Shown here in pieces: positions 17,824-21,633 of a stretch of DNA of 64,000 nt (positions within the stretch are counted from its first letter, which is position 1; each line of letters begins with the position of its first letter). The position numbers and the translations under genes were made by a program. Under the pieces are notes generated by a model. It ran no database searches, had not been told where the DNA came from, and was given only the letters and a program-made list of their open reading frames with translations. The DNA is from Halobacteriales archaeon QS_8_69_26. Its GTDB lineage: Archaea > Halobacteriota > Halobacteria > Halobacteriales > SW-7-71-33. The stretch is taken from contig PXRX01000023.1 of assembly GCA_003023195.1 (NCBI GenBank), positions 62,001 to 126,000 of the forward strand, read 5' to 3'.

Positions 17824-19050
17824 GTGCAATGTCCAACAAGACGGAGGACACGTCGGACGCCCCGGCGGATCGAGTTCTTCCAGGGCACGCTGAGTAGCCC
17901 CTCCGACGTAGACGACGCACGGATTTTCGACACGACGCTGCGCGACGGCGAACAGTCACCGCGAACTTCGTTCTCCTACGACGACAAGCGCGAGATAGCG
18001 ACGGCGCTGGACGACATGGGTACCCACGTCATCGAGGCGGGGTTCCCGGTCAACTCCCAGGCGGAGTTCGAGGCGGTCCGCGACGTGGCCCGGTCGACCG
18101 ACGCGACGGTCGCCGGCCTCGCGCGGGTCGTCCCCGAGGACGTCGAGGCGGCGCTGGACGCGGGCGTGGACATGGTCCACGTCTTCTGCTCGACCAGCGA
18201 GGTCCAGCTCCGCGACTCGATGGGGATCACCCGCAGGCAGGCGACGGCACGGTCGGTCGAGGCCGTCGAACGGGTCGCCGACGCCGGCGTCGAGGTGATG
18301 TACTCGCCGATGGACGCCACCCGCACCGACGAGGAGTACCTCGTCGAGGTGGTCGAGGCCGTCACCGAGGCCGGCGCCGACTGGATCAACGTCCCCGACA
18401 CCTGCGGGGTGGCGACGCCCCGCCGGTTCCGGGACCTGATTTCGACGGTGACCGCGCACACGGACGCTCGGGTCGACGTCCACACCCACGACGACTTCGG
18501 GATGGCGACCGCCAACGCCGTCGCCGGCTTCGAGGCCGGGGCCGCCCAGGCCCAGGTGTCGGTCAACGGCATCGGCGAGCGTGCGGGCAACGCCGCCTAC
18601 GAGGAGGTCGTGATGGCCGTCGAGAGCGTCTACGGCGTCGACACCGGCATCGACACGACGAAGATAACCGACGTGGCCCGGACGGTCGAGGAGAAGAGCG
18701 GCGTGCGCGTGCCGCCGAACAAGCCCGTCGTCGGCGCGAACGCCTTCGCCCACGAGAGCGGCATCCACTCGGCCGGCGTCATCCAGAACAGCGACACCTT
18801 CGAGCCGGGGGTGATGACCCCGGAGATGGTCGGCGCCGACCGCGAGATCGTACTGGGCAAGCACGCCGGCCAGCACGCCGTCAGGGAGCACCTGACCGAG
18901 GCCGGGTTCGACCCGTCCGACGACGAGGTCCGGGCGATCACCCGCCGGGTCAAGGACTTCGGCGCGGAGGACCGGCGCGTGACCGAACGCGTCCTCGCCG
19001 AGTTCGCCCGCGAGGTCGGCGTCACCCGGGAACGAGTCGAGGCCGAGTGA
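17824..19050 (+). CDS. leuA: 2-isopropylmalate synthase (short form)
   Basis: First committed enzyme of leucine synthesis, about 408 residues. Catalytic start ARIFDTTLRDGEQSP, then VDVHTHDDFGMA, NGIGERAGNAAYEE and ANAFAHESGIHSAG; it ends soon after the helical subdomain and lacks the C-terminal regulatory domain, as many archaeal LeuA proteins do. The only start in frame before RIEFFQGTL is the GTG at 17824, giving an Arg-rich N-terminus (QCPTRRRTRRTPRR) unusual for a haloarchaeon. An ATG 5 nt later opens another frame encoding an acidic MSNKTEDTSDAPADR, so a one-base frameshift near 17870 is possible. A hairpin follows the stop. Confidence 0.9.
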   Translation: MQCPTRRRTRRTPRRIEFFQGTLSSPSDVDDARIFDTTLRDGEQSPRTSFSYDDKREIATALDDMGTHVIEAGFPVNSQAEFEAVRDVARSTDATVAGLARVVPEDVEAALDAGVDMVHVFCSTSEVQLRDSMGITRRQATARSVEAVERVADAGVEVMYSPMDATRTDEEYLVEVVEAVTEAGADWINVPDTCGVATPRRFRDLISTVTAHTDARVDVHTHDDFGMATANAVAGFEAGAAQAQVSVNGIGERAGNAAYEEVVMAVESVYGVDTGIDTTKITDVARTVEEKSGVRVPPNKPVVGANAFAHESGIHSAGVIQNSDTFEPGVMTPEMVGADREIVLGKHAGQHAVREHLTEAGFDPSDDEVRAITRRVKDFGAEDRRVTERVLAEFAREVGVTRERVEAE

Positions 19051-19059
19051 TCCAGTGAG

Positions 19060-19077
19060 TCCCCACGAACGTGGGGA
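19060..19077. terminator. 8-bp hairpin after leuA
   Basis: TCCCCACG-AA-CGTGGGGA is a perfect inverted repeat starting 9 nt after the leuA stop. No T-run follows, so it may be an RNA-stabilising 3' structure as much as a terminator. Confidence 0.5.
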
Positions 19078-19277
19078 TCCGACCGCGATCCCCAGTAGCG
19101 GCTGGCGGTGGCAGACTCCCGGTGCCGGTGACTGGCGGCCGACTCCCGCCGACCCTCGGCGGCGGCCCACACGCGGCAGTCACGAGGGACGGGTAGCGGC
19201 TGATCCGGTCCCGACAGTCCCCTGCGGCGTCCCGGAGTGGCCCCGTGCCCCCACGGACCGTCAATACTGCCACTCTC

Positions 19278-19313
19278 GAACGCTTTATGTCCCCGGGGCC
19301 AGTTCGGGCGCAC
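19278..19313 (+). promoter_or_regulatory. promoter of the ilv-leu operon
   Basis: TTTAT at 19284-19288, preceded by the BRE-like CGAACGC, is centred 28 bp before the ATG of the leader ORF. No other AT-rich box occurs between here and ilvB (19702), so this is the probable promoter of the whole operon, and the transcript would begin at the leader ORF. Confidence 0.6.
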
Positions 19314-19415
19314 ATGACGTCCCCGACCGACGGTGTGCAGGCCCGTCGCTCCCAGCGGCGGGACCGGTCCGGGGACGCGGCCGCCATCGCGGGGATCATT
19401 GTAGGGGCTCCCTAG
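19314..19415 (+). CDS. putative ilv leader peptide (33 aa)
   Basis: A leaderless-positioned ORF: MTSPTDGVQ at the start, an Arg/Gln-rich middle and an end AAAIAGIIVGAP, i.e. Ile at 25, 28, 29 and Val at 30, amino acids made by the enzymes encoded downstream. The final codons ATC-ATT-GTA-GGG-GCT-CCC include ATT, GTA and GCT, which the neighbouring genes seldom use. The TAG stop (19413-19415) falls in the loop/stem of a perfect hairpin. It resembles bacterial ilv attenuation leaders in position, length and residue content. It could also be a chance ORF; no homology can be checked here. Confidence 0.5.
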   Translation: MTSPTDGVQARRSQRRDRSGDAAAIAGIIVGAP

Positions 19416-19423
19416 CCCCTACA
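19400..19423 (+). promoter_or_regulatory. 10-bp hairpin at the leader-peptide stop codon
   Basis: TGTAGGGGCT (19400-19409), loop CCCT, then AGCCCCTACA (19414-19423): a perfect inverted repeat covering codons 30-32 and the stop. No T-run follows, so intrinsic termination in the bacterial sense is not evident; control by RNA folding, Rho-like factors or translation is possible. Confidence 0.65.
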
Positions 19424-19660
19424 CACCCCCTTCCACGACTTCTCGCCGCATCGCACCCGACCAGCGTCGCTCCCACGTTCCGGGGGCGACCGTCGACGCG
19501 ACACCCCCTGGCGGCGCGTCACCCAACCCCGCCACACGACCGACGATCCCACCCACACGATGACAGCACACCCGACACCGACACGACGGAGCGCGAACCG
19601 ACCGGACGACCGACGCCAACGACCGACGAACCTGCGCTATCGAGGGGCGGACGGATCACC

Positions 19661-19671
19661 GGAGCCCCTGC
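19661..19671 (+). promoter_or_regulatory. distal segment complementary to the leader hairpin's 5' arm
   Basis: GGAGCCCCTGC can pair over 11 positions (one G-U) with GTAGGGGCTCC at 19401-19411. It ends 31 nt before the ilvB start. The leader arm could therefore fold either into the local hairpin or onto this segment, a mutually exclusive arrangement as in attenuators. In GC-rich DNA an 11-bp match may also be chance. Confidence 0.35.
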
Positions 19672-19701
19672 CCGGAACCACACGGAACGGGGAGGGATCC
19701 A

Positions 19702-21633
19702 ATGAGCGGTAGCGAACCGACCGGTGCGGACCCCGGAGAGGACCCGACCGACGCCGCGACGAGTCCGGAGCGGGACGGGTGTCCCGACACGGACCGGGAG
19801 GGGTCGCCGGACCCCGAAACCGCGACCGACCGGGAGGGGTCGCCGGACCCCGAAACCGACCGGGAGGGACCGCCGGACCCCGAAACCGACCGGGAGGGAC
19901 CGCCGGACCCCGAAACCGCGACCGACCGGGTCACCACCGGCGCGGAGGCGGCGGTGGCGACACTGGAGCGTGCCGGCGTCGAACACCTGTTCGGCGTCCA
20001 GGGCGGCGCGATCATGCCGGTCTACGACGCGGTGTACGACAGCGAAATGAGCCACGTGACGATGGGTCACGAGCAAGGCGCGGCCCACGCCGCCGACGCC
20101 TACGGCCAGGTGACCGGCGAACCGGGCGTCTGCATGGCCACCTCGGGTCCGGGCGCGACCAACCTCGTGACCGGACTGGCCGACGCCGACATGGACTCCG
20201 ATCCCGTCGTGGCCCTGACGGGCCAGGTGCCGACCGCCCTGGTCGGTAACGACGCCTTCCAGGAGACCGATACGGTGGGCGTCACCGCACCCGTCACGAA
20301 GGCCAACTACTTCGCGACCGGCCCGGAGGCGGCCGGCGAGGCCGTGGGCGAGGCGTTCGCACTGGCCCGCGAGGGCCGGCAGGGACCGACCCTGGTCGAC
20401 CTCCCGAAGGACGTGACCCAGGCGGCGGCCGACCGCGCTCCCGACCGCCCGGAGTCGCCCGAGACCTACGACCCGCCGGAGCGGGCCGACCCCGACCGGG
20501 TCGCCGACGCGGCCGCCTGTCTCGCCGACGCCGAGCGACCACTGATCCTCGCCGGCGGCGGCGTGATCAAGGGCGAGGCGAGCCCCGAGTTGCGCCGGTT
20601 CGCCAGGGAGTTCGAGGTTCCGGTCGCCACCACGATGCCCGGCATCGGCACCTTCCCCGAGGACCACGACCTCGCGCTGTCCTGGGCCGGCATGCACGGC
20701 ACGGGCTACGCCAACATGGCGATCAGTCACTGCGATTGCCTGCTCGCGGTGGGAACCCGGTTCGACGACCGCCTGACCGGCGACGTCGCCACGTTCGCCC
20801 CGGAGGCGACCGTGGTCCACGTCGACATCGATCCCTCGGAGATATCGAAGAACGTCCACGCCGACCACCCGCTGGTCGGGGACGCGGGGACGGTGCTGGA
20901 GCAGTTGCACGAGGCGATGCCGTCAGTGCCCGAGGCGGCGGCCTGGCGCGAGCAGTGCGCCCAGTGGAAGCGAGAGTACCCGATGACCTACGCCGCCCCG
21001 GAGGACGAACCGCTCAAGCCGCAGTTCGTCGTCGAGGCGGCGGACGCGGCCACCGACGACGACGCCATCGTTACGACGGGCGTCGGACAGCACCAGATGT
21101 GGGCCGCCCAGTACTGGACCTACACCGAACCGCGGACGTTCGTCTCCTCGCACGGCCTGGGGACGATGGGCTACGGCCTGCCCGCGGCCATCGGCGCGAA
21201 AGTGGCGGCTCCCGACAAGCAGGTCGTCTGCTTCGACGGCGACGGATCCTTCCTGATGACCTGCCAGGAACTGTCGGTCGCCGTCCGGGAGAACCTGGAC
21301 ATCACCGTGTTCGTCCTCAACAACGAGGCCGTCGGGATGGTCCGCCAGTGGCAGGACGGCTTCTACGACGGCCGCCGGATGGCCTCGGAGTATCCCTGGG
21401 TGCCCGACTTCGCCCGCCTGGCGGAGGCGTTCGGGGCCGAGGGGTTCCGGATTTCCGGCTACGGCGAGGTGGCCGACACCGTCCGGGCGGCCATCGCCCA
21501 CGACGGCCCGGCCGTCGTCGACGCCCACATCGACCCCGCCGAGGAGGTGTACCCGATGGTGCCGAGCGGCGGCGCCAACGACCAGTTCGCGCTCCACCCC
21601 GACCACCTCGATAACGGAGGTGAGGACGAGTGA
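19702..21633 (+). CDS. ilvB: acetolactate synthase large subunit
   Basis: Thiamine-diphosphate enzyme of valine/isoleucine synthesis, 643 residues. After a long acidic N-terminal extension (about residues 1-72, containing tandem repeats) the catalytic chain starts [36 protein letters not shown] carries the catalytic Glu, and the ThDP/Mg motif runs [12 protein letters not shown] to [11 protein letters not shown]. The ATG at 19702 has a GGGGAGGG Shine-Dalgarno 5 nt upstream, in accord with a long mRNA leader. The stop overlaps the ilvN GTG start. Confidence 0.96.
19792..19930. repeat. 30/36-bp tandem repeats inside ilvB
   Basis: Units starting GACCGGGAGG at 19792, 19828, 19858 and 19888, with a degenerate fifth at 19924, encode [10 protein letters not shown] / [10 protein letters not shown]. 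They expand the disordered acidic N-terminus ahead of the enzyme core. All spacings are multiples of 3, so the frame is kept. Confidence 0.85.

Follow-up and report, generated by a model that had tools for sequence, protein, structure and literature searches.

Introduction

Attenuation by leader peptides is a textbook mechanism of bacterial gene regulation. For example, the ilvGMEDA and leuABCD operons of Escherichia coli are governed by ribosome-mediated attenuators with which the leader described here can be compared, and the attenuator in front of pheST, an aminoacyl-tRNA synthetase locus of E. coli, has a leader peptide (pheM) that senses the amino acid of that synthetase. For archaea, a paper of 2021 states that neither transcription attenuation nor antitermination is known (PMC8448881), in agreement with the earlier note on this DNA, which had called the mode not established for archaeal ilv genes, and we found no earlier description of the present leader in open-access papers.

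How does the haloarchaeal leader compare with its bacterial counterparts? Like the bacterial ilv/leu attenuators, among them that of Corynebacterium glutamicum ilvBNC (PMC11857589), it uses codons for the end products, with rare ones chosen; these control codons stand near the end of a conserved leader ORF and within the 5' arm of a hairpin that shows compensating changes, and the same genes follow downstream. Unlike them, it has a leaderless leader ORF and a single hairpin holding the stop codon, lacks a conserved antiterminator or U-run terminator, and is crossed by a second open frame, which we call the bridge ORF. Leader-peptide regulation in actinobacteria, likewise proposed from comparative sequence analysis and likewise placed before amino-acid genes, involves alternative mRNA structures (PMC1262725), whereas just one small hairpin is conserved in the haloarchaeal family.

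Gene order at the locus

The window, by which we mean the whole stretch of 64,000 nucleotides that was analysed, is positions 62001-126000 of contig 23 in a haloarchaeal genome bin of 46 contigs. The leader lies between leuA and ilvB (Table 1); 3' of ilvB are ilvC, leuC, leuD and leuB, with ilvN presumably ahead of ilvC.

Table 1. Features of the leuA-ilvB region, in window coordinates
Feature	Position	Strand	Remarks
leuA (2-isopropylmalate synthase)	17824..19050	+	NCBIfam matches; upstream gene, same operon as ilvB
Bridge ORF	19055..19705	+	GTG start just 3' of leuA stop; TGA end overlaps ilvB ATG (ATGA)
TATA-like box TTTAT, internal promoter	19284..19288	+	position conserved in 165 loci
uORF1, leader peptide MTSPTDGVQARRSQRRDRSGDAAAIAGIIVGAP*	19314..19415	+	leaderless mRNA expected
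Control codons ATC ATT GTA GGG GCT	19395..19409	+	conserved core ATT-GTA-GGG
Hairpin	19400..19423	+	5' arm contains the GTA GGG codons; stop codon in loop and 3' arm
Stretch 3' of hairpin	19424..19560	+	possible factor-dependent termination site
ilvB (acetolactate synthase large subunit)	19702..21633	+	NCBIfam; first gene past the leader

Conservation of the leader

Comparison among loci brings out a conserved uORF, a choice of rare codons, compensatory changes in the hairpin, a reuse of the leader ahead of valS and the bridge ORF. Loci were sampled with IlvB as bait, so the leader itself was not presupposed. A first scan found a uORF1 ending in (x)IVG(A/V/P)(x) in 80 of 80 haloarchaeal ilvB loci (the script required an IVG-like ORF end, a requirement that cost no locus). 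In nearly all of them a TATA-like box precedes the start by about 30 nt, promoter calls and start choices being based on simple patterns. The second sample covered 254 genomes, from which 95 upstream regions of 75 genera were read; the core [ACG]T[TC]-GTA-GGG-[GC] stands in 91 of the 95 and in 72 of the 75 genera, and the count per genus is the fairer one, related loci not being independent. Two of the four regions without the core (L136, L137) belong to the most divergent IlvB lineages, a third (L157) retains GTA within a leaderless uORF that has a GGGCC/GGCCC inverted repeat behind it, and in the fourth (L083) the upstream leuA match is merely distant. The combined set analysed below comprises 173 loci.

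In the window, the first base of the TTTAT box lies 30 nt before the uORF1 ATG, and leaderless mRNAs are common in haloarchaea (PMC4983044, PMC3986360); a leaderless uORF1 mRNA is therefore expected. The peptide ends in IAGIIVGAP*. Both the promoter-like box and the small ORF with a branched-chain end had been pointed out in the earlier note, which advised aligning the upstream regions of haloarchaeal ilvB in search of three things: a conserved small ORF, branched-chain residues at its end, and covariation in the hairpin. All three are found across the class: the box recurs, and the combination of ORF end, leaderless promoter and hairpin is repeated in the 173 loci.

The codons at the end of uORF1 have a near-invariant core of AT[TC]-GTA-GGG-G[C/T]N. 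The valine codon is GTA in all 173 leaders, whereas GTA makes up 0.5% of the 6972 valine codons in the ilvB genes. Among the first 81 leaders, GTA and GGG are each present in 81, and the codon preceding GTA is ATT in 63 and ATC in 18, against an ATT share of 7.4% of isoleucine codons in ilvB genes; the wobble position of this isoleucine codon takes T or C only, while the third base of the alanine codon is free. Departures from isoleucine are still branched-chain, namely GTC (L100), CTC (L132) and GTA (L263, L264), and the six codons before GTA contain isoleucine, leucine or valine in 100, 35, 62, 29, 39 and 53% of cases versus about 10% further upstream. Could base pairing alone hold GTA in place? 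Its three bases pair with the 3' arm of the hairpin in 55-72% of loci (its A in 125 of 173), and since they are often unpaired, pairing does not explain the constancy of GTA. To judge from the leaders themselves, this codon pattern bears the marks of control codons. ATT, GTA and GCT had been named as the rarer codons; the fixed GTA and the enriched ATT bear this out, whereas GCT drops out, its third base varying freely.

The hairpin and the RNA behind it

The perfect 10-bp hairpin described around the uORF1 stop is indeed present, with the TAG lying in its loop and 3' arm. Window positions 19390-19440 fold at -24.6 kcal/mol (z -4.5), and 0 of 200 shuffles do as well. Across the family, 172-173 of 173 loci pair the GGGG with the 3' arm, the mean stem has 7.0 pairs versus 5.8 with shuffled downstream sequence, and the stop codon falls inside the hairpin in 163 of 173. 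Two of six pairs show compensatory change (GC to CG, CG to UA) in an alignment of 27 sequences, for which the covariation score of the stem is reached by 0 of 500 shuffles; a further compensatory change occurs in one valS leader (L252). Several Natrialbaceae have the 3' arm within the ORF and the stop behind it, so that the hairpin persists even where the stop moves.

What follows the hairpin differs from a bacterial terminator. A G+C hairpin with an immediate U-run is not a conserved feature of the leader loci, TTT occurring within 60 nt past the hairpin in just 93 of 173, and no terminator-like site with a T-run was found in the window, as the earlier note had observed. The first 15 or so nucleotides past the stem are nearly free of G throughout the leader family, and the stretch is C-rich; it may be a mere unstructured spacer. 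No mutually exclusive antiterminator pairing is conserved among the leader loci. The proposed re-pairing of the 5' arm near 19661-19671 does exist in the window over 11 positions, but it is not conserved, and such complementarity is rarer than in shuffled sequence; we rejected pairing of either arm with the ilvB start region, for which downstream complementarity is at or below the shuffled level, as specific to the window. Searches against Rfam, including the T-box and amino-acid riboswitch models, gave no match above chance.

A related leader ahead of valS

A covariance model built from the leader hairpin was run on 197 genomes of the phylum, with strict filters that may have lost weak matches, and all of its matches fall within the window's own order. 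In 15 genomes it matched a second site, ahead of valS (the gene being recognised from sequence), and a set of valS loci retrieved by means of TIGR00422 showed the site once more. All 25 of the valS leaders that were read have GTA, and none has isoleucine before it, that codon being for Phe, Arg, Val or Leu. Peptide ends seen among valS leaders are FVGA, RVGA, VVGA and VVR. A different, bacterial-like type of valS (type B; L265-L275) is preceded at about 100-200 nt by a short leaderless uORF that carries GTA GTA in 11 of 11 genomes (for example MRVAVAVVRR* and MYRSSVVRV*) and has no GTA GGG palindrome or hairpin motif. For the window organism's own valS (L289), no such leader was found. Nor was one found before leuS (12 loci), ileS (29), trpC (28) or ilvD (30), the last two being weaker controls because gene strand was set by open-frame length and may be wrong for a few of their shorter genes.

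The valS leaders resemble E. coli pheST in placing codons for the synthetase's own amino acid ahead of its gene; pheST has a classical terminator/antiterminator, whereas haloarchaeal valS has either the GTA GGG hairpin or GTA GTA with no hairpin. The recurrence of the GTA module before valS lends strong support to amino-acid sensing. In other words, the biosynthesis leader would read isoleucine and valine and the synthetase leader valine, a division not easily accounted for unless charged tRNA-Val is sensed.

Proposed mechanism

We propose, with a probability of about 0.77, that a ribosome reading the leader senses charged tRNA-Val (and at ilvB also tRNA-Ile) and that ilvB expression is controlled through the hairpin. 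Transcription from the internal promoter between leuA and ilvB would yield a leaderless mRNA with Ile-Val(GTA)-Gly-Ala-(x)-stop at the end of its first ORF. Under shortage of charged tRNA-Val for the very rare GTA codon, or of charged tRNA-Ile, the ribosome would stall and its footprint would hold the 5' arm of the hairpin open; when supply is ample, the ribosome would finish and leave, and the hairpin would form and enclose the stop codon. Once formed, and with untranslated G-poor RNA behind it, the hairpin would lower expression of ilvB and the genes downstream. That shortage should raise expression is taken from the biology of the genes. Amino-acid sensing is the best-supported step, and a well-supported one in comparative terms; stalling, the direction of the response, the mode of output and the role of the bridge ORF are what we infer beyond it.

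FttA/aCPSF1 terminates transcription in archaea. The output of the leader would most likely be premature transcription termination, hairpin- or aCPSF1/FttA-dependent, or possibly a translational block. A hairpin in a coding region gave 59% transcription termination in a Haloferax volcanii reporter (PMC7237163), and termination of this kind or by FttA/aCPSF1 would fit. An effect during transcription would demand rapid ribosome release, since a ribosome that lingers on the stop codon itself masks the hairpin.

If the proposal is true, archaea sense amino acids through ribosomes that read leaderless mRNAs, by an element that is conserved in 72 of 75 haloarchaeal genera and used a second time before valS. 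Additionally, archaeal transcription-translation coupling would become directly testable in genetically tractable halophiles, and unannotated small ORFs and the bridge ORF would gain a role.

The bridge ORF and rival explanations

The bridge ORF, which links the leuA stop to ilvB, is new here; the earlier note, whose reading of the leader is partly supported, had missed both it and the central place of GTA, a very rare valine codon. Shifted by -1 from the uORF1 frame, the bridge ORF runs across promoter, uORF1 and hairpin. Both of its ends are in place in 158 of 173 loci: it begins no more than about 10 nt from the leuA stop and finishes close to the start of ilvB, in most cases with ATGA. Within uORF1, frame -1 is free of stops in 165 loci, where 80 +/- 7.5 would be expected from codon shuffles; after uORF1 it has 15 stops, while the other two frames have 131 and 83, and before uORF1, back to the leuA stop, it has 1 stop versus 128 and 124. 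The product is poorly conserved and Arg-rich and has no Pfam or NCBIfam match. A separate "uORF2" before ilvB, considered as a candidate, proved to be the 3' part of the bridge ORF in most loci. About 131 of 173 loci have an in-frame ATG within the bridge ORF, mostly 44-116 nt past the uORF1 stop (L002-L178), which is absent in the window; it could be an internal start on the internal-promoter mRNA.

What keeps this frame open? We infer a coupling ORF, by which ribosomes from leuA would cover the RNA through promoter, leader and hairpin and pass to ilvB; on an mRNA started at leuA, they would traverse the hairpin and hand over at ATGA, so that the switch is escaped. Translational coupling has been described for Haloferax volcanii, and archaeal polarity is probably due to FttA (PMC12548453). 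Alternatively, a hungry ribosome at ATY-GTA might slip -1 into the bridge-ORF frame, pass the uORF1 stop and reach ilvB at ATGA. We favoured such a starvation frameshift at first, as frame -1 is open from the leader site to the ilvB start in 162 of 173 loci and stop-free through uORF1 in all 165, is open also in loci where it lacks a start codon past the site, and a similar slip has been discussed for the neighbouring leuA (PMC8305020). It was demoted, and we now think it unlikely, because the frame is equally stop-free back to the leuA stop and has its own start there, which a coupling ORF explains with no slippage; moreover, tRNA re-pairing at -1 from ATY, GTA or GGG would be poor, and in a few loci the open frame is +1. 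Similarly improbable are two linked decoding switches, in which leucine shortage would cause a +1 slip into leuA and valine or isoleucine shortage a -1 slip to ilvB, frameshifting replacing termination as the output.

Two further readings do without codon supply, and both seem to us very unlikely. The palindrome GTAGGGGC-n-GCCCCTAC might be a DNA operator, i.e. a repressor or roadblock site, with the surrounding ORF incidental: the hairpin is also a DNA palindrome 3' of a promoter, and some trpC promoters of this group have a palindrome between TATA and start. However, the reading frame, the leaderless start, the T/C wobble of isoleucine, the free wobble of alanine and a GTA that stays fixed even where pairing is lost all track codons, and type B valS has its tandem GTA codons with no such palindrome. 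An arrest peptide would have the nascent IVGA end stall the ribosome on a metabolite; conservation of I-V-G-A as a peptide in the ilvB leaders speaks for it, yet the valS leader ends differ, and one synonymous valine codon is fixed despite being the rarest. Least probable of all is a protein- or ligand-binding, riboswitch-like RNA at the GUAGGGG hairpin with translation irrelevant, which would account for a near-invariant motif with compensatory stem changes but is at odds with the single short helix, the missing Rfam match, the coding constraints on the leader codons and the absence of the motif from type B valS. Sensing of charged tRNA by a leader-reading ribosome is the reading that we prefer.

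Observations at neighbouring and control genes

Several trpC matches (L181, L185, L190, L191, L193, L200, L203) have a GTGCATTAGTGTAC-like palindrome between the TATA box and the leaderless start, an arrangement that would suit a DNA-binding repressor; strand is unsure for some of them.

In most haloarchaea, leuA has no in-frame start codon after its promoter (window 17824-17897; leuA 5' ends of L002-L081). A leaderless ATG there opens the frame MSxxxGTSxSPAD..RVLPGH, one out of step with LeuA (V/I-EFFQGTL), and the junction of the frames has a conserved CGA GTT CTT CCA GGG, with CTT for leucine in 77 of 78. These junction codons suggest a +1 slip, perhaps controlled by leucine, and a leucine-controlled slip has been speculated for HVO_1510 (PMC8305020). 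The start-codon anomaly of that gene, leuA2, belongs to the neighbouring gene of the same operon and concerns LeuA production, not the ilvB leader. We rejected a conserved leucine leader before leuA ("RVLPGH"), which is an out-of-frame reading of the LeuA N-terminus V/I-EFFQG. In the window itself, a GTG at 17824 is in frame with LeuA. Lastly, near-repeats of a CCGGACCCCGAAACCGACCGGGAGGG-like unit occupy window positions 19790-19920, where the N-terminal part of ilvB carries an acidic repetitive extension.
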